Shown here piece by piece: positions 23,016 to 34,982 of a stretch of 34,982 nt of DNA. The number at the start of each line of letters is the position of its first letter. Within the stretch, counting starts at the first letter, position 1. The position numbers and the translations under genes were made by a program. The notes under the pieces were generated by a model. It was not told the origin of the DNA, did no database searches, and worked only from the letters and a program-made list of their open reading frames with translations. Source of the DNA: Rhodococcus sp. (in: high G+C Gram-positive bacteria) (GTDB taxonomy: Bacteria > Actinomycetota > Actinomycetes > Mycobacteriales > Mycobacteriaceae); assembly GCA_012514505.1 (NCBI GenBank), contig JAAZAD010000507.1:1-34982 (forward strand). Reading direction: 5' to 3'.

Positions 23016-24242
23016 GTGGGGGCATCGAACGTAAACGCCAGCTCGCAGGCAAGTTCTACGCCAGCGAAGGCCAAGCGTTATCTGTGGCTCTGCGGCGCAG
23101 TCGTGCCCCTCAGTCCGTTTCTGGGATGGGCCCTCGTCGAATCGGTGGGTCCTGGCCTCTTCTGGGCATTCGGTGTGTTGCTGATGGCCATTGTGATTCC
23201 GCTCGTCGACCTGCTCACGGGACCGGACCTGAGTAACCCGACCGACGAAGAGTCGGCGGCCCTCGAGAACGACGCATTCTATCGGTGGTGCACCTACCTG
23301 TTCCTCCCCGCTCAGTACGCGGGTCTGGTGACGGCGTGCTACCTGTGGGTGACTGCGCCGATGGGCTGGCCGGAACGTTTGGCGTTGGCAGCCACGGTCG
23401 GTGTGGTCGCGGGCATCGGGATCAACGCCGCGCACGAACTCGGCCACAAGCGCACCCAACACGAACGCTGGTTCGCGAAGATCGCTCTCGCCCAGTCTGC
23501 GTACGGCCACTTCTACGTCGAGCACAATCACGGTCACCACTTGCGGGTGGCGACTCCCGAGGACGCCGCATCCGCTCGCATGGGTGAAACGTTCTGGCAG
23601 TTCCTGCCCCGCTCGGTGATCGGCGGCGTGCGCTCGGCGTGGCAGCACGAGAGCAGGCGGTTGACGCGGAAGGGGCAGCGCGTCTGGAGTCCACGGAACA
23701 ACGTGCTGAACGCCTGGGCGATGACTGTCGTGCTGTTCGGCGGACTCATCGCGGTGTTCGGGTGGGCGGTGGCCCCGTGGCTTGCCTTCCAGGCAGTGTT
23801 CGCTGTGGCGATGCTCGAGGCCGCCAACTACCTCGAGCACTACGGTCTGCTGCGCGAGCGCCGCAAGAACGGACGCTACGAGAAGTGCTCGCCCCGGCAC
23901 AGCTGGAACAGTGATCACCTGTGCAGCAACCTTTTCCTGTACCACCTGCAGCGGCACAGTGATCATCACGCCAACCCGCTCCGTCGCTACCAAACGTTGC
24001 GCACCAGGCCCGAGGCCCCGCAGTTGCCGGCCGGGTATGCGGTGATGATGTGGCTGTGCCTGGTGCCGTCGCTGTGGCGCAAGGTGATGGACCCGCGGCT
24101 CTTGGCGCACTACGACTACGACATCTCGCGGGTCAACATCCACCCGCCGAAGCGCGACGAACTGCTGGCCAAATACCCGCTACCGGACGTGCCCAGCGCG
24201 GCCGATCCGGCTGCCGAAAGGCCTGCCGCACCCGCCGTGTAA
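23016..24242 (+). CDS. alkB: Alkane 1-monooxygenase AlkB
   Basis: A 408-residue integral membrane non-haem di-iron hydroxylase. All hallmark histidine boxes are present: HELGHK (140-145), EHNHGHH (169-175), LQRHSDHHA (311-319) and the AlkB-specific NYLEHYGL (271-278). Six hydrophobic segments surround them. It hydroxylates medium or long n-alkanes at the terminal carbon using electrons from rubredoxin. No rubredoxin, rubredoxin reductase or alkU-type TetR gene follows; the next gene is on the other strand and ends 6 bp away. It is thus a stand-alone alkB, as described for some of the multiple alkB copies in rhodococci. GTG at 23016 is used, with AGGGACGAG upstream. Confidence 0.96.
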   Translation: MGASNVNASSQASSTPAKAKRYLWLCGAVVPLSPFLGWALVESVGPGLFWAFGVLLMAIVIPLVDLLTGPDLSNPTDEESAALENDAFYRWCTYLFLPAQYAGLVTACYLWVTAPMGWPERLALAATVGVVAGIGINAAHELGHKRTQHERWFAKIALAQSAYGHFYVEHNHGHHLRVATPEDAASARMGETFWQFLPRSVIGGVRSAWQHESRRLTRKGQRVWSPRNNVLNAWAMTVVLFGGLIAVFGWAVAPWLAFQAVFAVAMLEAANYLEHYGLLRERRKNGRYEKCSPRHSWNSDHLCSNLFLYHLQRHSDHHANPLRRYQTLRTRPEAPQLPAGYAVMMWLCLVPSLWRKVMDPRLLAHYDYDISRVNIHPPKRDELLAKYPLPDVPSAADPAAERPAAPAV

Positions 24243-24248
24243 CTGCCG

Positions 24249-25727
24249 TCAACTGGGTAGTTCGTTCAGGCTCGTGGTGCGCTCTTCGATCCACGAGCGC
24301 ATGGAGTCGATCTCCGTCTGCAACGCTTCGGCGGTAAGTCCGTCGGAGACCGGTACCGTCCCGGCGAGGGTGTCCAGAATTTCGAGTGCCCGCCCGCTTC
24401 CGTACATCTGCTCGAACAGGTCCCAATAGGCGTCCTCGTAGATTTGGGTGAATGCAGCAGATGCCAGGAATCGGGTTTCGAGGGGGTTGCCGACCTGTGG
24501 ACCGCCGCCATCCGGTGCGCCTCCACCGGGTCCCCCGCCGACCCCCATGGACACCGTGTCGTGGGGGCCTGCCGTGGTGTCACCTTGCATCGCCAAGTTC
24601 AGATCCCACGAGATGACCGACAGCTTCTGCGTTTCCAGGTCGAACCAGAGGTAGTAGTTCTGCCCGGGACCACCCATGTCGTCACCGTTGGTGAGCAGGT
24701 TCTGGGTGGCGGTGTACCGGGCGAACGATTCCACGTCGACCCAATCGGCCAGGTGCGCGGCGAATTCCTCGTCGTTCGCCGAGTCCATCCACTTCAGGAA
24801 GCTGATGATCGGTTGAAGGTTGCCGCTGTCCACGGCGTTGATCTGTTTGAACTGATCGGCGTAGGAAGACTGATCGCCGCCGACGTATTCGAATCGCGAG
24901 GACGCGTCCGCCTTGTAGAGGTAGCCGTCGGTGTCGAACAACGTGTTGGCATACGTGTCATCGGGATGTTCGAGTACCAGCCTCGTGGTGGTGGCGCTGT
25001 CGTTGACCGAATACACCGTGTACGCGTACCGCTGGGTGGGCTGGCCGGTGTCTGCAGTCAGCGAGAGCGCCATCGCTTCGTTGATCACCGGCGAGCCGGG
25101 ACGGACCGCGAGTTCGGTCATGCCCTGGTAGGCCCGGCCGCCGGCGTTCTCGTCGAAGCTGATGAGCAACGGAAGTGACGTCGGGTCGTCGGCGGAAGCC
25201 TGCGCCATCATCGGACCACCCATTCCCCGCGGACCTTGCGTGGGGTCGAACGCTTCGGGCGGCGCGAATCCTCCTGGCATGTCCAATCCCGGCGGTGGTG
25301 TCATGTCGGAGGGGTCGGTGCCTCGGACCCCCATGAGGGTGGAGTTGCCCTTCAGTCGTACGGACGCGTCTTCAACCCGTGTGCCGTCGATGACGACGTC
25401 GGCGGTCACCCACCTTTTGTTGCCGGTGTCTTGGAAGGTGGTGATCATGGTGTCGTACTCGACGTCGGTGATCTCGATCGACAATTCGTGCGTGATCGTG
25501 GCGTCGAACAGGTCCACCGTTCCGGTGATGTTGTCGGTGATCTCCGAGGAGATGATCGTGGCGTCGCCGGTGATGTACGGGTGTATTCTCGACGATCCGA
25601 ACACGGTTGCAAGGAGCATCACGAACACCACCAACACGACCGGCAGCTTCCAGTGCCGGCGCAGCGACGTGGGGATCCGGTGCCGCAGTCGGCGCCGCGG
25701 CGGTCGCCGTATGGACATGTCGCTCAT
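24249..25727 (-). CDS. CotH-family protein kinase-like membrane-anchored protein
   Basis: A 492-residue protein. A basic N-terminus leads into one membrane anchor (about 27-48, WKLPVVLVVFVMLLATVFGSS), so the rest should lie outside the cytoplasm. The CotH domain shows VRLKGNSTLMG, FDENAGGRAYQGMTELAVRP and the active-site segment YYLWFDLETQKLSVISWDLNLAMQ. A Gly/Pro/Met-rich insertion (for example APPEAFDPTQGPRGMGGPMM) is present. CotH proteins are atypical kinases of the secretory and spore-coat type. The start overlaps the DUF4956 stop by 1 bp (TGATG). It is the last gene of the VTC-DUF4956-CotH operon. Its substrate is unknown. Confidence 0.88.
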   Translation of the reverse strand: MSDMSIRRPPRRRLRHRIPTSLRRHWKLPVVLVVFVMLLATVFGSSRIHPYITGDATIISSEITDNITGTVDLFDATITHELSIEITDVEYDTMITTFQDTGNKRWVTADVVIDGTRVEDASVRLKGNSTLMGVRGTDPSDMTPPPGLDMPGGFAPPEAFDPTQGPRGMGGPMMAQASADDPTSLPLLISFDENAGGRAYQGMTELAVRPGSPVINEAMALSLTADTGQPTQRYAYTVYSVNDSATTTRLVLEHPDDTYANTLFDTDGYLYKADASSRFEYVGGDQSSYADQFKQINAVDSGNLQPIISFLKWMDSANDEEFAAHLADWVDVESFARYTATQNLLTNGDDMGGPGQNYYLWFDLETQKLSVISWDLNLAMQGDTTAGPHDTVSMGVGGGPGGGAPDGGGPQVGNPLETRFLASAAFTQIYEDAYWDLFEQMYGSGRALEILDTLAGTVPVSDGLTAEALQTEIDSMRSWIEERTTSLNELPS

Positions 25728-26404
25728 CAGATGTCGGTCTGGTCGTATCCGGTCAGGACGGTGACGCGCTGGCCGGTGTTGACCCCACTCAAGGCCGAGA
25801 TCAATTCGTTCGGCTTCTTGCCCTTCTTCAACTGCGCCGTGTAGTACAGCTCGGTCAGGGCGCCGGACCGGACCGCTTCGGTGGAGACCAGTTCGAAGTC
25901 GGTGCAGTACTGGATCAGCACGTCCTCGACGATCGACGTGAACTCCGGCTCCGGCGGGACCTGAACCTTGACGACCTGGCGCTGCACGTCGAGTTTGAAC
26001 CAGTTGAACTTGTTCATCAGCACCAGCACCAAGCAGATCGCGATGGTGGCGGCGATCGCCAGCACATAGAACCGGGTGCCCGTGGTCATACCGATGGCCA
26101 TCACCAGGAAGATGAAGCCGACGTCGCGAGTTTCCTTGATGGCGTTGCGGAATCGCACCACTGACAGCGCACCTACTAGTGCGAACGCGCGAGCGATGTT
26201 GGATCCCACCACCAGCATGATCAGGGCGATGACCATGCCCACCATGACGAGGGTCTGTACATAGGACTGGCTGTACGAGACGTTCTTGTGGGTGTAGCGG
26301 TAGACCCAGCCGATGATGGCCGAGAGCACGAACGACAGCGACAACGACACGATGATGTCGAATGTGGTGAATGTTCCGCTCAGATCTTGGAAGTCGAAAT
26401 TCAT
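25727..26404 (-). CDS. DUF4956 membrane protein
   Basis: A 225-residue protein with four membrane segments in the first ~135 residues (including FDIIVSLSLSFVLSAIIGWVY and LVMVGMVIALIMLVVGSNIA). The conserved FALVGALSVVRFRNAIKETRDVGFIFLVMAIGM block is characteristic of DUF4956, and a soluble C-terminal domain of about 90 residues follows. The function is unproven; the family is repeatedly found next to VTC-domain and CotH genes. It follows the VTC gene by 11 bp, with AGGA before the ATG, and overlaps cotH by 1 bp, so the three proteins are probably made together. Confidence 0.87.
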   Translation of the reverse strand: MNFDFQDLSGTFTTFDIIVSLSLSFVLSAIIGWVYRYTHKNVSYSQSYVQTLVMVGMVIALIMLVVGSNIARAFALVGALSVVRFRNAIKETRDVGFIFLVMAIGMTTGTRFYVLAIAATIAICLVLVLMNKFNWFKLDVQRQVVKVQVPPEPEFTSIVEDVLIQYCTDFELVSTEAVRSGALTELYYTAQLKKGKKPNELISALSGVNTGQRVTVLTGYDQTDI

Positions 26405-26415
26405 GGAGATCCTGT

Positions 26416-27270
26416 TCAGGAGGCGTGGTCGTGGAGGGCGGGGACGGGCGCGTCGAATCCTTCGGAGAGAAGCAATTCGGGCGCTCCGATCCGGGAGTGT
26501 GGGGCAAGTCCGAATGCTTGGACCGACTGGCAGTACTTCGAGATGCGGATGACCGACATGCCGAGCCTGGCGGTCAGATCGGTCGCCCAGTAGGGCACCC
26601 GTTCGTTGGCCTTGAGTTCGACGATGGCCAATTTCGGCGGAACGATGAACCGGTTCTGTGCGCCCGAGGCGAAGTGGAAGTCGCGGTCACGTCCGTGCAC
26701 TTTGTGGTCGATCGTCACCCGCAACCCGAGGTCCGCGCCGCGGCCGACGAACGCTTCCCGCCGGTACCCGGTGGTCACGATCGGCCGCAGATCGAGATTG
26801 CCGACCAAGGTGGAGACTTCGTTCACGAATGGGCGCTGAGAGGGGTGGCAATCGATTTCTTCGCGTCCGTTGACCCAGCCTCGGGCGAGACCGTAAGGCA
26901 TTGCGGTGCGCCGCTTTTGGGTCACGCGGTTGACACGCTGCTTGATCTCGACCTGGACGGGTGTGTCGTCTGCGCACTTGTCGGGGTTGCCGTACAGGCG
27001 CAGCCGCAGCTTGCGCCGAAACTTCAGCCCTTCGATCTTCTCCCAGTAGAACCGCAAGTCGGCAGTGTCGTAGTACAGCGACGTCACCGGGTAACTCCCG
27101 TGCGGGGAGTGCGGGTCGGTGTCCATTCGGGCGGCGAGCTCGCGGCGGAGCTCGGGAACCTTCATCTCGTCGACGAAGTACTTGATCTCGTAGCGGTTGA
27201 AGGCGTGCAGCTTGCTCGCGGTCTGTTGATATCCGGTGGGCTCGGTGGGGACGTCTCCGGTCATCCACAC
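26416..27270 (-). CDS. VTC-domain polyphosphate polymerase-like protein
   Basis: A 284-residue protein consisting of one VTC tunnel domain (CYTH/TTM-like fold). Visible signature elements in order are NRYEIKYFVDE, SLYYDT, KLRLRLYG, VEIKQRVNR with QKRR, LRVTIDH, AIVELKANE and ISKYCQ. These provide the basic and acidic residues that line the tunnel and bind metal. In yeast VTC the domain polymerises phosphate from ATP into polyphosphate. There is no SPX or membrane domain here; the next gene, DUF4956, could provide the membrane part. GTG at 27270 or ATG at 27264 are possible starts. It diverges from a PhoP-like regulator gene across a 133-bp region with PhoP-box-like repeats. Confidence 0.87.
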   Translation of the reverse strand: MWMTGDVPTEPTGYQQTASKLHAFNRYEIKYFVDEMKVPELRRELAARMDTDPHSPHGSYPVTSLYYDTADLRFYWEKIEGLKFRRKLRLRLYGNPDKCADDTPVQVEIKQRVNRVTQKRRTAMPYGLARGWVNGREEIDCHPSQRPFVNEVSTLVGNLDLRPIVTTGYRREAFVGRGADLGLRVTIDHKVHGRDRDFHFASGAQNRFIVPPKLAIVELKANERVPYWATDLTARLGMSVIRISKYCQSVQAFGLAPHSRIGAPELLLSEGFDAPVPALHDHAS

Positions 27271-27308
27271 AGCACACCCCGGTCACCTCGAGGATTCATG
27301 GGGTCTTG

Positions 27309-27358
27309 CTGGCAATCAGCTGGGAATCGACCGGAACCTGTTGCCAGGAACTTCCCAG
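27309..27358. promoter_or_regulatory. Two mirrored PhoP-box-like direct repeats between the VTC operon and phoPR
   Basis: CTGGCAA-N4-CTGGGAA (27309-27326) is mirrored by TTGCCAG-N4-TTCCCAG (27341-27358), the whole being symmetric about 27333. Seven-base direct repeats with a 4-base spacer, of type CTGTGAA, are the known M. tuberculosis PhoP recognition geometry. The location, 46 bp before the regulator start and 39 bp before the VTC start, suggests that one response regulator controls both divergent operons. Confidence 0.6.
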
Positions 27359-27403
27359 ACAACCTCGAGGTGTTCGCCAGCTTCGCCTGAAAGAATCGGC
27401 AAC

Positions 27404-28111
27404 GTGAGCGACCGCATTCCCGAAGCCCGTGTACTGGTCGTCGACGACGAACCGAGCATCGTCGAGCTGCTGTCCGTGAGCTTGAAGTTCCAGGGCTTCG
27501 AGGTGGAGACCGCGGCCAACGGGGCCGAGGGGCTCGACCGGGCCCGACGATTCCAGCCCGACGCGGTGATTCTCGATGTGATGATGCCGGGGATGGACGG
27601 TATGGGCATGCTGCGGCGGCTACGTGCCGACGGCAGCGACGCCCCGGTGCTGTTCCTGACGGCGAAGGACTCGGTCGACGACAAGGTGGCGGGCCTGACC
27701 CTCGGCGCCGACGACTACGTCACCAAACCGTTCAGCCTCGAGGAGGTGATCGCTCGTCTACGGACGATCCTGCGGCGTGCCGGTAAGACGTCCGAGGCGG
27801 AGCGCAGCGCGCGTATCAGGTTCGCGGATGTCGAACTCGACGACGACACCCGAGAGGTGTTCAAGGCAGACCAGCCGATATACCTGTCGCCGACCGAGTT
27901 CACTTTGCTGCGGTATTTCATGGTCAACGCGGGGACGGTGCTGAGCAAACCCCGGATCCTCGAGCATGTGTGGAACTACGACTTCAACGGCGAGGTCGGT
28001 GTGGTCGAGTCCTACGTCTCCTATCTGCGACGCAAGATCGACACTGGCGACGTCCCTCTCATACACACTGTCCGCGGAGTCGGCTACGTGATGCGGAAGC
28101 CACGCACGTGA
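27404..28111 (+). CDS. phoP: PhoP-like OmpR-family response regulator
   Basis: A 235-residue protein. The receiver domain has acidic Asp14/Asp15, phosphoacceptor Asp58 (VILDVMMPGMDG), Thr86 and Lys108 (DYVTKPFSLEEV). A C-terminal winged helix follows (LSPTEFTLLRYFMVNAGTV...VVESYVSYLRRKID...VRGVGYVMRKPR). The match to mycobacterial PhoP as I recall it is very close along the whole length. GTG at 27404 is chosen because the receiver begins nine residues later; the frame is open upstream but without similarity. It overlaps the sensor gene by 4 bp (GTGA). In mycobacteria PhoP controls lipid, acid and phosphate-related genes; the regulon here is not known but probably includes the facing VTC operon. 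Confidence 0.9.
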   Translation: MSDRIPEARVLVVDDEPSIVELLSVSLKFQGFEVETAANGAEGLDRARRFQPDAVILDVMMPGMDGMGMLRRLRADGSDAPVLFLTAKDSVDDKVAGLTLGADDYVTKPFSLEEVIARLRTILRRAGKTSEAERSARIRFADVELDDDTREVFKADQPIYLSPTEFTLLRYFMVNAGTVLSKPRILEHVWNYDFNGEVGVVESYVSYLRRKIDTGDVPLIHTVRGVGYVMRKPRT

Positions 28112-29541
28112 TTCGCCTCCGTAGGCTGCCGCTGCGGTGGACGCTGGTTGCGGCCCTGCTGGTGTTGTCCGGTCTGGGGTTGCTCGCCTCCGGTGTCGCG
28201 GTCACCTCTGCGCTGCAGAATTCTCTGCTCACTCGCATCGACGGAGACCTTGGCACCGCGGCACAAACGTGGGCGCGTCCCAGGGGGCTGCCGCCGCCAC
28301 CGCCACCGGCCGCTCCGAGTTCGCAGCGGCCGCCGAGCCCGTTCTACGTCCAGGTCACTGGCCCCGACGGTGAGGTTCGGTTGGTGGTCAACGACGAATC
28401 GGCCGCACCCGAGGTACCGGCGGAACCGACAGACGGTCCGGTGACCGTCGGCTCCGTCGGCGGCGGCGACGTGCGCTGGCGTGTGGTGAGAACCGAAGGC
28501 CCCGACGGGGTCGTCACCACTGTCGGAATGAGTTTGTCCGAAGTGGAGGAGACCGTCCGCCGGCTCGTGGTGCTGCAGACGACTATCGGTGCGGTCGTTC
28601 TTCTTGCTCTCGCCGCGGCGGGCGGGTTCGTGGTGCGCCGGAGCCTGAGGCCGCTGCGCGAGGTGGAACGGACTGCCGTCGCCATCGCTGGTGGCGATCT
28701 CCACGAACGCGTGCCCGAACGAGATCCGCGGACCGAAATCGGCCGGCTGTCGGTGGCATTGAACGGGATGCTCAGCCAGATCCAGGCGGCCTTCGCGGCG
28801 ACAGCGCAGTCGGAGGAATCGGCGCGCCGTTCGGAGGAGAAGATGCGCCGGTTCGTCGCCGACGCCAGCCACGAACTGCGCACTCCGCTCACCACCATCC
28901 GCGGATTCGCCGAGCTGTACCGGCAGGGCGCGAGCACCGATACCGACCGGCTCATGGACCGCATCGAGCGGGAGGCCCGGCGGATGGGGTTGCTCGTCGA
29001 AGACTTGTTGATGCTCGCGCGGCTCGATGCGCAACGGCCCTTGGAGCGGGTCCCGGTGGATCTGCTCGCGGTGGCCGCCGACGCGGTGCACGGGGCTCGG
29101 GCGGTCGAACCGGACCGCACCATCGAACTCGAGGTGATCGACGGCCCCGGCACCCCAGAGGTTCTCGGCGACGACGCACGGTTGCGGCAGGTGCTCGGCA
29201 ACCTGGTCACGAACGCCCTCACCCACACGCCGCCGGACACTCGTGTGACGGTACGAGTCGGCACCACCGAGGATGACGTAGTGCTCGAAGTCGTCGACAC
29301 AGGCGACGGACTGGGGGCCGAGGAACAGGAGCGGGTGTTCGAACGCTTCTACCGGGCGGACGCTTCGCGCACCCGGGCATCGGGTGGCAGCGGATTGGGC
29401 CTGTCGATCGTCGCGGCGTTGGTGGCCGCGCACGGTGGCCGCGTCGAGGTGGACTCGACGAAAGGGGTGGGCTCCACCTTCCGCGTCCACCTCCCACCCC
29501 GGCCAATGTCGCACACGTTCAGCCCAGGTGAACCGGTGTGA
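28108..29541 (+). CDS. phoR: PhoR-like sensor histidine kinase
   Basis: A 477-residue membrane kinase. TM1 spans about 12-34, and an extracytoplasmic sensor region of about 120 residues carries a proline run (PPPPPP at 62-67). TM2 spans about 154-176, with HAMP about 177-229. The H-box is DASHELRTPLT with phosphorylated His255, followed by N-box NLVTNALTHTP, G1 DTGDGLG and G2 GSGLGLSIV. The GTG start overlaps the stop of the response regulator gene, so they form a cognate pair. The 3' end is 18 bp from the convergent sortase-like gene. The signal sensed is unknown; by homology to PhoR, acid or envelope conditions are candidates. Confidence 0.92.
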   Translation: MIRLRRLPLRWTLVAALLVLSGLGLLASGVAVTSALQNSLLTRIDGDLGTAAQTWARPRGLPPPPPPAAPSSQRPPSPFYVQVTGPDGEVRLVVNDESAAPEVPAEPTDGPVTVGSVGGGDVRWRVVRTEGPDGVVTTVGMSLSEVEETVRRLVVLQTTIGAVVLLALAAAGGFVVRRSLRPLREVERTAVAIAGGDLHERVPERDPRTEIGRLSVALNGMLSQIQAAFAATAQSEESARRSEEKMRRFVADASHELRTPLTTIRGFAELYRQGASTDTDRLMDRIEREARRMGLLVEDLLMLARLDAQRPLERVPVDLLAVAADAVHGARAVEPDRTIELEVIDGPGTPEVLGDDARLRQVLGNLVTNALTHTPPDTRVTVRVGTTEDDVVLEVVDTGDGLGAEEQERVFERFYRADASRTRASGGSGLGLSIVAALVAAHGGRVEVDSTKGVGSTFRVHLPPRPMSHTFSPGEPV

Positions 29542-29559
29542 CATTCGTCGGGGAGCAGG

Positions 29560-30159
29560 TCAGGCGGGCGCCGGTGTCGCCCAGGCGATGATGTTGTCCG
29601 CGTATCCCAATGGTGCGCCCACGAACTCGCCACCGCAGGTGATGAGTGCCAACAGTTCTGGACCTTGGAGGCGATTGAGCCGCTCGGTCGGTAGTTTTCC
29701 GGACGCCTTGTCGTAGTGCTCGACTGCCTGCACCACATACCTGGCCTCGGCGTCGTCGGCCGAGCTGAGGGTGACCACGTTGCCCATCTGTAGGCCGATG
29801 AACTTCTTCGCGAACCCGACCTGACCGTTGCCGTTGATGTGGCCGGTCATCACGATCGTGCCGCCCACCCTGTCACCTGGCATGTCGGACGCCTCCCACC
29901 AGCCGATGCGGTCGAGCCGTTCCGGGGGCAGCAGCACGCCGTCCTTGTTGGTCGCGATCGTGACGATCGTTGCGGAGTCCGCGCCGGGCAGCGTGATGGT
30001 CGTCGGAGCCCACTCAACCTGCAGCGGTTGTACAGGTTCAGCAGTCTCGGTGACGGGCATCTTCGTGGACGACGACGGGTCGGAGGGTTGCGAGTCAGCG
30101 CCGCACGCTCCGACGGCCAGTGCCGTCGCCGTAATCCCCACCGCGAGTGCGCGCTTCAC
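29560..30159 (-). CDS. Class F sortase-like lipoprotein
   Basis: A 199-residue exported protein: short signal, possible lipobox VGAC (Cys19), Ser/Thr/Pro-rich linker, then a sortase beta barrel. The catalytic His107 (IVMTGHINGNG) and Cys175 (LALITCGGEF) are in place. No arginine occurs anywhere after the cysteine (GYADNIIAWATPAPA), although sortases normally need one there. Class F sortases of actinobacteria are housekeeping-type transpeptidases or have unknown roles. It starts 12 bp after a secreted protein with a Ca-binding-type motif, so the two are likely co-transcribed and that protein may be its partner. No LPxTG-type signal was found in the window. Confidence 0.8.
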   Translation of the reverse strand: MKRALAVGITATALAVGACGADSQPSDPSSSTKMPVTETAEPVQPLQVEWAPTTITLPGADSATIVTIATNKDGVLLPPERLDRIGWWEASDMPGDRVGGTIVMTGHINGNGQVGFAKKFIGLQMGNVVTLSSADDAEARYVVQAVEHYDKASGKLPTERLNRLQGPELLALITCGGEFVGAPLGYADNIIAWATPAPA

Positions 30160-30171
30160 GGCCCGAGTCCC

Positions 30172-30987
30172 CTACACGTGCAGTGGACCGGACGGCACCG
30201 ACCTGAGCGGGGTGCGATCTGGGTTCGGGGGAACCGTCACGTCGATGTTGTTCTGTTGCACATTCACGTCAGGGGCATCTGAGGCCGGGGGTGGCGGTGT
30301 TGCCGGGATGGGCATCCCGGCATCGGTGGCCACGGTGAAACTGACTGGCACGCTCGTCGACTGCCCGCCCTTGCTGTTGCATTGCACGGTCACGGTGTAG
30401 TTGCCGTCGGGGAGCATCTCCTCGTAATAGGTGATCGACGCGCCGCCCGAGGTCCATTGCTCGGGAAGGAAGTTTCCGTCCCGCACCCCGGTCGGCCCGC
30501 AGGTCGAGATGATCTGTTTCGGATCGTTGGGATTGTGCACCACCAACTGCACCGCTGAACCGTTTCCGCCCACCTCGACGATCGGGCCCAGGAGCGGGGG
30601 CTCGCCGGGGAACTCGTCCACGCTGTCGGGAACACCGTCGCCATCGCTGTCGGTGGGAGGCGGTTCTGTGGGCGGGTTGTCCTCGCACACTGTCGCGTTG
30701 TTCACCGCCTCGGTGGCCGCGGTGTGTGCGGCGTTGGCGTCGGCGATCGCGGCCTGTTCTTCGGCTGTGACCTCGGCTCCGCCTGGAGATTCCGGCGTCC
30801 GTGCGTCCGTCTTCACCTGTTGCGCTTGGTCGGCTGCCGCGCTGCGATCAGCGGTGAGTTGATCGTATTCGGCCTGCGTCAAGCATCCCCCTTGTGGCGC
30901 CCCACTTGCCACGCCGCCGCCCACCAAGGCGCCTCCGGCAAGGACGACCGCCGCCACCAATCTCCCGCTTCTCCGCTGGATGTTCAT
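30172..30987 (-). CDS. Secreted protein with thrombospondin-type-3-like calcium motif
   Basis: A 271-residue protein with a signal peptide ending near ASGA (residue 30). A helical Ala/Gln-rich segment (about 35-100) bounded by two cysteines comes next, then a DSDGDGVPDSVDEFPG repeat of the Ca-binding thrombospondin type 3 kind. A beta-sandwich-like domain with two cysteines (STCGPTG and VQCNSKGG) and a Pro/Asn-rich C-terminal tail complete it. There is no membrane anchor or sorting motif. The ATG at 30987 has AGGA 7 nt upstream; further upstream frame is not supported. It lies 12 bp before the sortase-like gene. No named family is recognised for the full protein; cell-surface or matrix function is inference. 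Confidence 0.75.
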   Translation of the reverse strand: MNIQRRSGRLVAAVVLAGGALVGGGVASGAPQGGCLTQAEYDQLTADRSAAADQAQQVKTDARTPESPGGAEVTAEEQAAIADANAAHTAATEAVNNATVCEDNPPTEPPPTDSDGDGVPDSVDEFPGEPPLLGPIVEVGGNGSAVQLVVHNPNDPKQIISTCGPTGVRDGNFLPEQWTSGGASITYYEEMLPDGNYTVTVQCNSKGGQSTSVPVSFTVATDAGMPIPATPPPPASDAPDVNVQQNNIDVTVPPNPDRTPLRSVPSGPLHV

Positions 30988-31113
30988 GATGTGTTCCTGC
31001 CCTTCTTGGAACGGGGCAGCGGTCGTGCCTGTCAGCGGCACGAACTCCGCTGTTACGTGGTTAATCGTTCGATTTCGTGACCCTGTTACCAGCATCTTCG
31101 AGAATGTTCGGAC

Positions 31114-31143
31114 TTGACCTTCGAGTCGACTCGAAGGTTTACC
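31114..31143 (+). promoter_or_regulatory. MerR-type promoter/operator
   Basis: TTGACC (31114-31119) and TTTACC (31138-31143) are separated by about 18-19 bp, which are filled by a perfect 22-bp palindrome at 31117-31138 with arms ACCTTCGAGTC/GACTCGAAGGT. An overlong spacer carrying a palindrome is the standard layout of promoters activated by MerR proteins. It lies 8 bp upstream of the merR ATG, so the gene is self-regulated, probably from a leaderless or short-leader message. Confidence 0.8.
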
Positions 31144-31151
31144 GTCGTGTC

Positions 31152-31922
31152 ATGAGTACTTATCGGATCTCGAAACTGGCGGAGGTCTCCGGTATTCCGG
31201 CGACCACCTTGCGGTTCTACGAGACGGCCGGGCTGCTCTCGGCCGAGCGGACCGCGTCGGGTTACCGGGTCTACGGCGACGAGGCCGTGGAGCGGTTGGC
31301 GTTCATCGCCTCGGCAAAGCACCTCGGATTGCCCCTCAACGAGATCCGGGAGCTGCTCGGGGTCTGGGAGCAGGGAGTCTGTGCCGCAGTGCGGCAGCGG
31401 ATGCTTCCGATGGTCACCGAACGGATGACCGACGCGGACAACAGGATCGCGGAACTGACAGCCTTCTCGGCGCGCCTCGCCGGGTTCCGCAACGAGCTGG
31501 CCGAACCCGCCCCTTCCGGCGCTTGCGGGCCGGACTGCGGCTGCGTCACGTCCCACACCCCGGCACCCGTCCCACTGCCACTGGAACGCGTCCGGTCCGA
31601 GTCATCGCCGGATCGACAAGCATGGCGGGACGCACCCGTGGCCTGCACCCTCGGCGGCGACGAGTACGACGAACGAGCACAGCGGGCCGTGCCAAGTGGC
31701 GATACCGGCGAGTACCCGTTGATACCGGAATCTCGATCGTCGTTGCACCGTCCACGTATTCATCTTGCCTGGCGGCTTGCTCCCGACTTGAAGTCGAGTC
31801 CGTTCTTGGCGGCTGGGGCGCCTTGGGAGCTTCGGCCTTGGTGGTCGACTGCCCGGCCAGCGGTGAGTCATCGTGCAGCTTTCACCTCGGTGCAATACGT
31901 CATCAGATACAATTACGTGTAG
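31152..31922 (+). CDS. MerR-family metal-type regulator with abnormal C-terminus
   Basis: The first ~125 residues are a normal MerR protein: the winged HTH YRISKLAEVSGIPATTLRFYETAGLL, then a dimerisation helix, followed by a Cys-rich CGPDCGCVTSH and VACTLGGDEYDERAQ as in a known actinobacterial subgroup. After about residue 178 (near position 31685) the translation loses family resemblance. It runs through a relic of the Fe-S reductase tail (31764-31842) read antisense and stops at 31922. In the +1 frame a segment CSFHLGAIRHQIQLRVDV (31889-31942) could be a displaced MerR C-terminus (weak). Frameshift and insertion damage are therefore likely. The DNA-binding half and operator are intact. No metal exporter or chaperone target lies next to it. 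Confidence 0.7.
   Translation: MSTYRISKLAEVSGIPATTLRFYETAGLLSAERTASGYRVYGDEAVERLAFIASAKHLGLPLNEIRELLGVWEQGVCAAVRQRMLPMVTERMTDADNRIAELTAFSARLAGFRNELAEPAPSGACGPDCGCVTSHTPAPVPLPLERVRSESSPDRQAWRDAPVACTLGGDEYDERAQRAVPSGDTGEYPLIPESRSSLHRPRIHLAWRLAPDLKSSPFLAAGAPWELRPWWSTARPAVSHRAAFTSVQYVIRYNYV
31764..31842 (-). pseudogene. Relic copy of the 3' end of the Rv0338c-like Fe-S reductase gene
   Basis: On the minus strand this reads as the terminal part of the gene at 33447-34982 (KAEAPKAP..AAKNGL.FKSGA.KPPGK). It corresponds to 33453-33483 for the final codons (CTTGCCTGGCGGCTTG shared exactly) and to 33642-33697 for the preceding part (GAGTCCGTTCTTGGCGGC shared exactly). It has two single-base deletions and lacks the last internal repeat and the stop codon. 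It has the same orientation as the intact gene, 1.7 kb away, with the AbiE operon between them. Confidence 0.8.
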
Positions 31923-31928
31923 ACGTAT
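31895..31928. promoter_or_regulatory. Candidate AbiEi operator/promoter
   Basis: ATACGTC (31895-31901) and GACGTAT (31922-31928) form a perfect inverted repeat, with a -10-like TACAAT (31908-31913) between the arms. It lies 23 bp before the AbiEi start in an AT-richer patch. AbiEi antitoxins are known to repress their own promoter through inverted repeats. Confidence 0.5.
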
Positions 31929-31951
31929 CGTTCCAAACCGAGGTGGTGACG

Positions 31952-32509
31952 GTGACTACTGTGAGACCGAGCGCGCCGGAGCAAGTCGGCCTGTCGCGCA
32001 GCGCGCTGTATCGCGCGGCGAATTCGGGGCGGCTGGAGCGGATAGCGCGCGGCGTATACCTGCCTGCGGAGTCGTCGGCTGCGGACTGGGACTGGCTCGT
32101 CGCTGCGACCCGCCGCCCCGCGGCAACGATCTGCTTGACCTCGGCGCTTGCCCACCACGATCTGACCGATGCAATCCCCACTGCTCTGGATGTCGCGATC
32201 CCCCGAGGGGTGAGGACACCGGCGGGCGACGCGTCGATCGCGTGGCACCAGTTCGATCGGGCGACATTCGAGATCGGACGCGAGGAGATCCCGATACCGG
32301 GGGCGGATCAGATGATCTGGATCTACTCGCCGGAGCGCTCGATCGTGGATGCGTTCCGGCTTCGCGGCGAGGTCGGGTACGAACTGGCGCGGGATGCATT
32401 GAAGGAATGGCTGCGTCGCGGAGGTAAACCGGCCCGACTGATGGAACTCGCATCCCACCTACCTCGAGCGAAATCCCCTGTCCTGCAAGCATTGGAGATA
32501 CTGGGTTGA
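31952..32509 (+). CDS. AbiEi-family type IV antitoxin / transcriptional regulator
   Basis: A 185-residue protein with an N-terminal winged helix (EQVGLSRSALYRAANSGRLERIARGVYLPAE). The AbiEi body follows: TICLTSALAHHDLTDAIPTALDVAIPRG, IWIYSPERSIVDAFRLRGEVGYELARDAL. In AbiE systems this protein counteracts the AbiEii nucleotidyltransferase and represses the operon. GTG at 31952 is chosen because GAGG lies 8 nt before it; the frame is open further upstream but crosses the reductase relic and is not coding. It overlaps the toxin gene by 4 bp (TTGA). The codon and base usage near the start is less GC-rich than flanking genes. Confidence 0.85.
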   Translation: MTTVRPSAPEQVGLSRSALYRAANSGRLERIARGVYLPAESSAADWDWLVAATRRPAATICLTSALAHHDLTDAIPTALDVAIPRGVRTPAGDASIAWHQFDRATFEIGREEIPIPGADQMIWIYSPERSIVDAFRLRGEVGYELARDALKEWLRRGGKPARLMELASHLPRAKSPVLQALEILG

Positions 32510-33357
32510 ACATCGGCGAAGAAGCGTTCCGCCGCATCCAGTCTGCGGCGCGGTCCGCCACCGCTAGAAGCGGTGCGGGTGCGCCGACACAGGAATACCT
32601 CATCCGGCACACTCTGGAATCGTTCCTGGACCGACTTACGCGCACACCGCATGCGGACGACTTCGTACTCAAGGGCGGCATCCTGCTGGCGGCCTACGGG
32701 GCGCGGCGCCCGACGAAAGACGTCGACGCGAACGCGGTGAGGGCGGACGTCACATCCGAACACCTCGCCGGCGTAGTCCGTGACATCGCAGCGATCCGGA
32801 TCGACGACGGCGTGGCGTTCGATCTCGACACGATCGACGTGCAGGAGATCCGCGAACAGGCCGACTATCCGGGCCTGCGCATGCGAGTCGCCGTATCGAT
32901 CGGCCCGTGGAAGGGCGTCGCTGCATGGGACGTGTCCACCGGGGATCCGATCGTGCCCCCACCCCGGCGCGTGAGCATCGATCGGGTGCTCGGCGATCCG
33001 ATCACGCTCCTCGGGTACGCGCCCGAGACCACGATCGCGGAGAAGGGTGTCACCATCCTCGAACGCGGCATCACCAGCACTCGGTGGCGCGACTATGTGG
33101 ACATAGTTCAGCTCGCCCGCCACGGCGTCGACGCCGACGAACTGCTGCGATCGGCGCGGGCGGTCGCTCGCTTTCGCGGGGTGACGCTGGAACCCGTCGC
33201 GGCGCACCTGACGGGATACGACAAGGTCGGTCAAGCGAAATGGGCGGCATGGCGTCGCAAGGAACGCCTCGAGCACGCCTGCGAGGAGAACCTCGACGAG
33301 CAGATCGTCCTGGTGGCCTCGTATCTCGACCCAATCTTCTCCAATGGCCCCGCGTAG
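32506..33357 (+). CDS. AbiEii-family nucleotidyltransferase toxin
   Basis: A 283-residue protein of the AbiEii/AbiGii/MenT-like nucleotidyltransferase family. It has FVLKGGILLAAYGARRPTKDVDANA (about 51-75), which holds the metal-binding Asp pair, the acidic FDLDTIDVQEI segment, and the conserved EKGVTILERGITSTRWRDYVDI block with the family's EK and RDxxD residues. Such toxins stop growth, for MenT by adding nucleotides to tRNA, and can abort phage infection. A TTG start overlapping the antitoxin stop is used; no better start is seen upstream. It is followed by a perfect terminator. It appears intact. Confidence 0.87.
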   Translation: MNIGEEAFRRIQSAARSATARSGAGAPTQEYLIRHTLESFLDRLTRTPHADDFVLKGGILLAAYGARRPTKDVDANAVRADVTSEHLAGVVRDIAAIRIDDGVAFDLDTIDVQEIREQADYPGLRMRVAVSIGPWKGVAAWDVSTGDPIVPPPRRVSIDRVLGDPITLLGYAPETTIAEKGVTILERGITSTRWRDYVDIVQLARHGVDADELLRSARAVARFRGVTLEPVAAHLTGYDKVGQAKWAAWRRKERLEHACEENLDEQIVLVASYLDPIFSNGPA

Positions 33358-33400
33358 GCGCTACCGATACCAGCGCCACCCGGTTTATGCCGGCGACAAA

Positions 33401-33438
33401 CAACTGCGCCCCACCGGAATCCCGGTGGGGCGCAGTTG
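33401..33438. terminator. Perfect 17-bp bidirectional terminator
   Basis: CAACTGCGCCCCACCGG (33401-33417) pairs with CCGGTGGGGCGCAGTTG (33422-33438) around a 4-nt loop. It lies between the AbiEii stop and the convergent Fe-S reductase stop, 8 bp from the latter, and probably ends both transcripts. Confidence 0.85.
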
Positions 33439-33446
33439 TTCATGTC

Positions 33447-34250
33447 TTACTTCTTGCCTGGCGGCTTGGCTCCCGACTTGAAGCCGAGCCCGCCCTTGGC
33501 GGCCGGGGGAGGCGTGGGGGCCTCCTTCTCGGCTGCGGGGGCCTCGGGCTCTGCCTTCGGCTCGTCTTCCCTGGGCTCGGCGGCCGGTGCTGCGGCAGCA
33601 GCAGGAGCAGTCTTACCTGCACCCGGTGCTTTCGCTCCGCCCTTGAAACCGAGTCCGTTCTTGGCGGCCGGAGGCGCCTTGGGAGCTTCAGCCTTGGGGG
33701 CCTCCGCCTTCGGTTCCTCTGCCTTCGGTGCCTCGGTCTCGCCTGCGTCGGACGAGGGTGCTGCGGCGGCCGGTGCGGGCTTGCGTGCGCCCGGTGCCTT
33801 TGCTGCGCCCTTCATGGCGAGTCCGCCCTTTGCTGCGGGCGGTCCCTTCGGCTTCTCCGCTGCCGGAGCTTCCGAGGCGGTGGCCTCGGTGGAGTCTGCC
33901 GTGGCCGGTGCTGCGGGGGCCTTCGCTCCGGGAGCCTTACCGGCGCCCTTCATCTGCAGACCGCCGCCGGGTGCCTTCCCGCCGCCTTTCATGGCGAGCC
34001 CGCCCTTGGCTGCGGGCGGTCCCTTCGGCTTCTCGTCGTCGGAAGCGGCAGCGTCGGCAGGTGCGGAAGCCTTGGCTCCCGGTGCCTTTCCGCCGCCCTT
34101 CATGGCGAGTCCGCCGCCGCCGGGCGCCTTGGCTCCGGGCGTCTTGCCGCCGCCCTTCATCGCCAGGCCACCGCCGCCGGGCGCCTTCGCACCGGGTGTC
34201 TTTCCGCCGCCCTTCATGGCGAGTCCGCCACCGGCGGGTGCAGCCTTGGC
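33447..34250 (-). repeat. Imperfect coding repeats in the Fe-S reductase tail
   Basis: Eight degenerate units encode GL(A/G/Q)(M/F)K(G/S)(G/A)(G/A)K-x-PG. Three near-identical 5'-most units (about 34090-34230) follow each other with a period of about 57 bp, and the others are spaced by charged linkers. Such arrays expand and contract by recombination, and the relic copy at 31764-31842 lacks one unit. Confidence 0.8.
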
Positions 34251-34982
34251 CGGAGCCTCGGCTGCTTCCTCGACCTCTTCGACCCGATCCTGCTCGACCG
34301 TCTCGGCCTTGGCCTCGGCGGCTTCGGCAGGCTTCTCGCGGGGGATGACCTTGATGTTCTCGGTCAACGCGTCCGGCTCGAGGCGGGTGATGGACGACAG
34401 CATCAACTGCGCGACGTCCACGACCTCGACGCCCTCGCCCTGGCCCGATTCCTGACGTGCGGTGACACCGTCGTTGAGCATCACGCGGCAGAACGGGCAG
34501 CCGGTGGCGATCTTCTTGGTGTCGGTGCTGAGCGCCTCGTCGACACGGTCGACGTTGATGCGCTTACCGATGTTCTCTTCCATCCACATGCGGGCGCCAC
34601 CGGCACCACAGCACATGGACCGCTCACCGTGACGCGGCATTTCCTTCAGGGTGCTGCCGGACGCGGCCATCAGCTCACGGGGAGCGTCGTACACCTTGTT
34701 GTGACGACCCAGGAAGCACGGGTCGTGGTAGGTGACGTCCTCCTGCACAGAGGCCACCGGAATCAGCTTCTTCTGCCGCACGAGGCGGTTGAGCAGCTGC
34801 GTGTGGTGCACGACCTCGTATTGGCCACCCACCTCCGGGTACTCGTTGCCCAGGGCGTTGAAGCAGTGGGCGCAGGTGACGACGATCTTGCGCTTGCGCT
34901 GCTCGACGCCCTCGAACACGGAGTTCAGCGTCTCGATGTTCTGCAGGGCGAGCTGCTGGAACAGGAACTCGTTACCTGCGCG
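33447..34982 (-). CDS. Rv0338c-like Fe-S (CCG-domain) oxidoreductase, 5' part outside the window
   Basis: The last 511 residues are visible; the N-terminal membrane and 4Fe-4S parts lie beyond the right edge. Two cysteine-rich CCG domains of the heterodisulfide reductase/GlpC type are seen: VTCAHCFNALGNEYP, VTYHDPCFLGRHN, ERSMCCGAGGARMWMEE and TGCPFCRVMLNDG. After about residue 210 comes a 290-residue low-complexity Ala/Pro/Lys/Gly tail with eight copies of a GLAMKGGGKxPG-type unit separated by acidic Ala/Pro/Glu spacers. Rv0338c is an essential-type membrane Fe-S reductase of mycobacteria, presumed to pass electrons from a dehydrogenase. A decayed second copy of the 3' end lies at 31764-31842. 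Confidence 0.9.
   Translation of the reverse strand, partial: RAGNEFLFQQLALQNIETLNSVFEGVEQRKRKIVVTCAHCFNALGNEYPEVGGQYEVVHHTQLLNRLVRQKKLIPVASVQEDVTYHDPCFLGRHNKVYDAPRELMAASGSTLKEMPRHGERSMCCGAGGARMWMEENIGKRINVDRVDEALSTDTKKIATGCPFCRVMLNDGVTARQESGQGEGVEVVDVAQLMLSSITRLEPDALTENIKVIPREKPAEAAEAKAETVEQDRVEEVEEAAEAPAKAAPAGGGLAMKGGGKTPGAKAPGGGGLAMKGGGKTPGAKAPGGGGLAMKGGGKAPGAKASAPADAAASDDEKPKGPPAAKGGLAMKGGGKAPGGGLQMKGAGKAPGAKAPAAPATADSTEATASEAPAAEKPKGPPAAKGGLAMKGAAKAPGARKPAPAAAAPSSDAGETEAPKAEEPKAEAPKAEAPKAPPAAKNGLGFKGGAKAPGAGKTAPAAAAAPAAEPREDEPKAEPEAPAAEKEAPTPPPAAKGGLGFKSGAKPPGKK

Follow-up and report, generated by a model that had tools for sequence, protein, structure and literature searches.

A decayed copy of the etfD gene end beside an AbiE toxin-antitoxin operon in a draft Rhodococcus genome

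Genomic islands may integrate at the 3' end of a gene and duplicate that end. The gene Rv0338c, named etfD (PMC8593149; PMC13083937), encodes a protein whose disordered C-terminal region varies in length among mycobacterial species and has repeats interspersed inside it (PMC13083937). The defence modules known as AbiE have already been reported in Rhodococcus, as two such systems are entered for R. erythropolis NI86/21 in a defence table of PMC12915292. We describe here a locus at which the end of etfD and an AbiE operon lie together. The window analysed is the whole contig JAAZAD010000507.1 (G000:C469), 34,982 bases in length, from a draft genome of Rhodococcus sp. (609 contigs, completeness 96.93%, contamination 6.93%). 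A preliminary description of this stretch had placed an intact AbiEi-AbiEii operon (31952-33357) between the 3' end of etfD and a decayed copy of that end in the same orientation, hereafter the relic, and both are confirmed here, the operon by PADLOC and Pfam and the copy by alignments. Overall, the locus holds a true scar, and beside it a toxin-antitoxin operon of a kind already known; a link between scar and operon is suggested by their position.

The live etfD gene occupies 33447..34982 on the reverse strand and runs off the contig, so that its 3' part only is seen, composed of a CCG domain (Pfam CCG, E 4.8e-18) and a tail of repeats rich in Ala, Pro, Gly and Lys. A match to it is present in 39 of 41 genomes, and NCBIfam returns sub-cut-off matches only (best 80.3 versus 385 bits). 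The relic is an 82-base sequence on the same strand, at 31763..31844; it had been assigned to 31764-31842, and thus the feature itself stands while its borders are corrected by one or two bases. One half of it resembles the penultimate repeat unit of the live tail (33634..33700, reverse strand; 86.6% over 67 columns, E 2.1e-16), and its gene-end half resembles the last unit (33452..33508, reverse strand; 89.5% over 57 columns, E 2.6e-15), with 17 of 17 bases identical at the end, the two units lying 165 bases away from each other. The best single-step fit is obtained with the live tail shortened by 165 bases, corresponding to one repeat unit or 55 codons and being the best among the deletion lengths tried: 78 of 84 columns are then identical, with four substitutions and two single-base deletions. 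This agrees with the earlier proposal of a match to two parts of the tail with two such deletions and one repeat fewer.

As the tail is low in complexity and repeated within the gene, we have considered that the similarity could be a by-product of coding sequence rich in these four residues. However, three pieces holding most of the relic reach local-alignment scores of 84-88, whereas none of 1542 controls (771 overlapping pieces cut from window 1-31700, on both strands) exceeds 33, and a search of the own genome with the relic returns the two places in the tail at 77.9 and 73.4 bits, the next best place scoring 29.2 bits. Similarity by chance or composition is refuted by the controls and by this search, and such an origin of the match is almost certainly wrong.

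The relatives used in the comparison are mostly Rhodococcus and Nocardia. Their tails were collected at 108 loci (109 were entered and L160 was left out, its stop lying outside its stretch; several genomes are present twice). None of these 108 tails has KPPGK or AAKNGL, two motifs of the live tail that can also be read in the relic (L159 has KPPGR). Since these lineage-specific motifs are common to the relic and the live tail, the relic was copied from the etfD tail of this same lineage. The relic reads GLDF for GLGF, and GLDF is likewise found in none of the 108 tails; this change and the two frame-breaking deletions sit on the side of the relic, which indicates relaxed constraint on it, and the fragment itself is probably without function. 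A simple count of motifs gives two or more GLGF-type units in 38 of the 108 tails, one in 54 and none in 16. Most of the tails with two or more units come from Rhodococcus, and this count suggests that the short form of the relic is derived.

The two ends differ in a further respect. Six bases past its stop codon, the live gene is followed by a terminator-like hairpin with a perfect stem of 19 bp (33399..33440), detected by repeat search between the convergent etfD and abiEii genes. The relic ends a few bases before the position of the stop codon, and in the 90 bases after it the longest stem found was 4, with no second hairpin. Many relatives have hairpins of a similar make behind etfD: perfect stems of at least 7 bp are found in 56 of 95 distinct downstream stretches (not found in 39), versus 86 of 1000 pieces taken at random from the window; a terminator scan requiring a run of T listed nothing, the hairpin at 33399..33440 included. 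With the stop codon and hairpin retained by the live gene and neither by the relic, we take the live end, on these features, to be the older of the two and the relic to be an incomplete copy of it. The preliminary description had suggested a rebuilt or duplicated tail with the old end left behind, and the idea of an old end left behind is not supported by these features.

A small defence module enclosed by direct copies of a gene's 3' end, with 17 identical bases at the gene end, is what site-specific integration would leave if the 3' end of etfD served as attachment site and the integrase had since been lost. This origin is nevertheless highly improbable: the repeat omits an internal unit and the stop codon, no comparable duplication is found at 107 other loci (see below), no tRNA was found in the window, and none of the 34 distinct window frames covered by 35 Pfam scans matches an integrase or transposase, in line with the earlier remark that no integrase is present.

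The module enclosed by the two tail copies is composed of two open frames. The abiEi antitoxin and repressor gene (31952..32509, forward strand, GTG start) is recognised by PADLOC (AbiEi, E 1.5e-51) and by Pfam (AbiEi_4, E 1.6e-8 at residues 11-38), and its product matches PDB 6y8q over residues 12-184 (E 7.5e-10), query residue 12 corresponding to chain residue 25; both the winged helix and the C-terminal domain are covered by the AbiEi_4 and 6y8q matches. Its stop overlaps by 4 nt the start of abiEii (32506..33357, forward strand, TTG start), a toxin gene of the nucleotidyltransferase (NTase) family (Pfam AbiEii, E 2.1e-32; PADLOC, 7.4e-73). The solved toxin nearest to AbiEii by sequence is 9hlo, named AbiGII (E 5e-16), and NCBIfam gives no family at E 1e-3 for either protein. 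AbiEii keeps 21 of the 22 columns that are invariant in 20 relatives, and the NTase motif residues K56, G57, R68, T70, D72, D74, K180, R193 and D196 are identical in all 21 aligned sequences. The operon has the look of an ordinary type IV toxin-antitoxin system. By analogy with its family, AbiEi would repress its own promoter through binding to the dyad described below and would neutralise AbiEii, and AbiEii would be a GTP-binding nucleotidyltransferase toxin that stalls growth, resulting in phage defence or in the stabilisation of DNA.

Ahead of the operon lies an operator-like dyad (31883..31945), with an outer inverted repeat (CACCTCGGT/ACCGAGGTG) and an inner one (ATACGTC/GACGTAT). Its 9-bp and 7-bp arms are exact and its inner spacing is unequal (3 versus 8 bases), with a TACAAT box at 31908-31913 between the arms; a consensus promoter scan listed nothing. 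By likeness to the AbiEi operators described in PMC7319586, the dyad is a candidate AbiEi operator.

We have also looked for signs of a recent or foreign origin of the module. Its base composition (GC 0.66-0.67; GC at third codon positions, GC3, 0.74-0.81) was rejected as foreign, GC3 being like that of three other genes in the window (0.74-0.79). Matches to AbiEii, own genome included, are found in 10 of 201 genomes of the family (best other E 4.4e-51 at 39%) and in 53 of 396 genomes of the phylum (best other E 2.6e-53 at 37%), and all matches among 622 plasmid and 16 phage records lie below 60% identity. Dating the gain by a close relative of AbiEii was given up, none being close enough in these four sets, and by these matches the operon is not close to any AbiE found in the comparisons.

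A different state is seen at the same site in relatives. Same-genus DNA matches to the stretch from AbiE to etfD have about 72-86% identity (best piece per genome), and the comparison is therefore one at species distance. At 107 relatives' loci, some genomes being counted twice and 1.6-16 kb (median 10 kb) being examined per locus, tblastn with AbiEi and AbiEii found nothing downstream of etfD at E 1 except for a 26-residue AbiEi match (0.83) in L065. A DNA search of 27 further genomes of the genus, with ten candidates scored per genome, gave one 44-base match inside abiEii and no other within the module. With the own tail and the relic as queries, no comparable tail copy was found downstream of etfD at any of the 107 loci. 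Recurrent relics were considered and rejected, as the weak matches seen in seven loci (E 1e-3) are not comparable to 82 bases at E 1e-15: those to the own tail are in L065, L135, L156, L158 and L186 (the best, in L065, has 1.8e-5 over 52 columns at a distance of 12 kb), and those to the relic cover 32 bases in L068 (2.5e-4) and L127 (1.5e-4), which are a single site in a genome represented twice. Judged from these searches, a single tail without AbiE is the rule at this site, and the related genomes without AbiE and with a single tail that the preliminary description had called for do exist, in other species.

The AbiE genes are not the sole additional material at this site. A fatty-acid desaturase gene (23016-24242, Pfam scan) begins 164 bases after etfD in L098 and, in L157 (Rhodococcus sp. 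RD6.2), at a distance of about 1.5 kb from it, but here about 9 kb of DNA of mixed origin (24.2-33.4 kb) separates the two, running from CotH-VTC, response regulator-histidine kinase, sortase and secreted-protein genes (24249..31095, Pfam) through a merR-like gene and the relic to AbiE. The CotH-VTC and response regulator-kinase pieces are found, among the matches listed, at separate other places in relatives. Of 33 loci entered, 25 gave any match, and in none of these 25 has the stretch from CotH-VTC to the secreted-protein genes a strong match behind etfD; with two inverted Nocardia loci set aside, the distance from the etfD stop to a conserved aminotransferase was measured in 23 and varies from 1.4 to 10.2 kb, versus 14.6 kb here. 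The variable distance and content indicate a gene-gain interval, in which AbiE is, on these comparisons, one piece of a patchwork spanning about 24.2-33.4 kb. An insertion consisting of AbiE alone does not agree with this.

Adjacent to the relic is the merR-like regulator gene (31152..31683, forward strand; Pfam MerR_1, E 1.5e-18), truncated at its 3' end. It shares 80% DNA identity with G005:C26 and G041:C4 up to 31683 and is then broken off, whereas the genes of relatives extend about 80 residues beyond the breakpoint; a break where relatives go on points to a deletion or junction scar at that place. As a separate observation, the merR-like frame (31077-31922) stays open across the relic and ends only within the abiE dyad, and a fusion protein could be made.

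With a probability of about 0.6, we favour as the best explanation that AbiE was gained in the variable interval and that the relic is a local partial copy of the tail, later cut back. A type IV AbiE operon of ordinary build would have been gained downstream of etfD, local recombination or repair in the repeat-rich tail would have made a partial tail copy lacking one unit, and a later deletion or rearrangement would have trimmed both the relic and the adjoining end of the merR-like gene. The parts of this explanation open to direct observation are the copy, its lineage-specific origin, the missing unit, the open module, the truncated merR-like gene and the related species with a single tail and no AbiE. 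A connection of the tail copying with the arrival of AbiE is suggested by position, and the deletion that cut the relic and the merR end is one that we infer. Homologous recombination between tail repeats, put forward in the preliminary description, is a possible route.

A number of observations weigh against this explanation. The closest comparison genomes belong to other species, so that the order of events is unseen, and the relatives' tails match the relic at 74-78%. The 79 bases between the merR-like gene and the relic (31684-31762) matched nothing at E 0.01, and the right edge of the relic with the next 33 bases (about 31835-31877) gave two weak matches only (E 0.004 in G024 and 0.007 in G042). 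As for the module, AbiEi (window 31943-31990) seems to be without the first dozen or so residues that precede the winged helix in relatives, AbiEii has H at position 35 where all 20 relatives have Y, and its C-terminal end (33325-33357, the side facing etfD) is unusual, missing the W of 17 of the 20 relatives; these departures, together with the short N terminus of AbiEi, mean that full activity is not certain. Finally, the relic and AbiE may have arisen independently of each other.

If so, the relic would be an older, unrelated duplication of the tail, or end-joining filler, and AbiE would have come in between at a later time. Such a history would fit the frameshifted state of the relic, its departure from the live tail at 6 of 84 columns and an interval patched together from separate pieces; against it, the relic lies just 38 bases from the abiE dyad, and neither relic nor AbiE is present at any other locus examined. 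We regard this alternative as unlikely, though one to be taken seriously. A rather less probable one, a special form of the best explanation, is a Campbell-type single crossover, in which a circular molecule that bore AbiE and part of a conspecific etfD tail would have integrated at the tail. The product, a full gene followed by AbiE and a partial tail, has the observed order and single orientation, a later deletion having taken the second stop, the hairpin and the merR end; the scar at the truncated merR-like gene could thus account for the missing stop, and AbiE modules can stabilise mobile DNA (PMC3985639). However, only the two AbiE genes were found within 31.8-33.4 kb, with no replication, transfer or integrase gene recognised there, the copy is merely 82 bases long, and no second hairpin follows the relic.

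A wider and doubtful reading takes the disordered, repeat-rich etfD tail as an integrase-free landing pad, in which incoming DNA would recombine within the tail repeats, the gene would stay whole since tails with many different in-frame unit counts are tolerated, and the gained module would be left with a unit-short tail copy on its far side; this combination, taken as a whole, is improbable. At the 107 other loci compared, no second case was found. Were the tail repeats a recurrent landing pad, they would offer a concrete and testable route for gene gain without an integrase. Leaving this aside and returning to the explanation favoured above, the locus offers a small, clear case in which a defence module, itself without a visible recombinase, adjoins a core metabolic gene, and its scar could be dated given sequences of sister strains.

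Two further observations concern the remainder of the interval. The CotH-VTC and response regulator-kinase pieces are adjacent here (24249-29541) but apart in relatives, which points to a further junction near 27.2-27.4 kb. At 29498-29553, where the ends of two convergent genes meet, lies a palindromic dispersed repeat of about 57 bases, resembling repetitive extragenic palindromes (REP-like) and expanded in this lineage: it has at least 57 matches in the own genome at E 1e-3 (both strands of a place being counted, and 33 of 56 candidates scored), versus three matches at most per genome, all weak (best 6.3e-7 over 31 bases), among 27 same-genus genomes, and no match at all in 16 of them.

The locus can be compared with four kinds of known system; an earlier report of a tail-copy scar of this type was not found in a narrow literature search, too narrow to claim absence. 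With the type IV AbiE systems, as described in PMC3985639 and PMC7319586, it shares a two-gene operon with the repressor-antitoxin first and the NTase toxin second, the family motif residues in the toxin and inverted repeats ahead of the operon, here a putative operator, as well as the 4-nt overlap of S. agalactiae (PMC3985639); it differs in a slightly shorter AbiEi N terminus, in the inner spacing of the dyad and in one changed invariant residue of AbiEii. Like hotspots flanked by core genes, it has a variable interval beside a core gene, with content that differs among relatives and no integrase or transposase seen, although here the variability is seen between species and not between strains. 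As in islands that integrate at 3' ends, the module is flanked by direct copies of a gene end, but here there is no integrase and the copy is without the stop codon and one internal repeat unit. Finally, the live gene shares with EtfD (Rv0338c / MSMEG_0690; PMC13083937) a repeat-bearing C-terminal tail of variable length, whereas here a decayed partial copy of that tail sits downstream.

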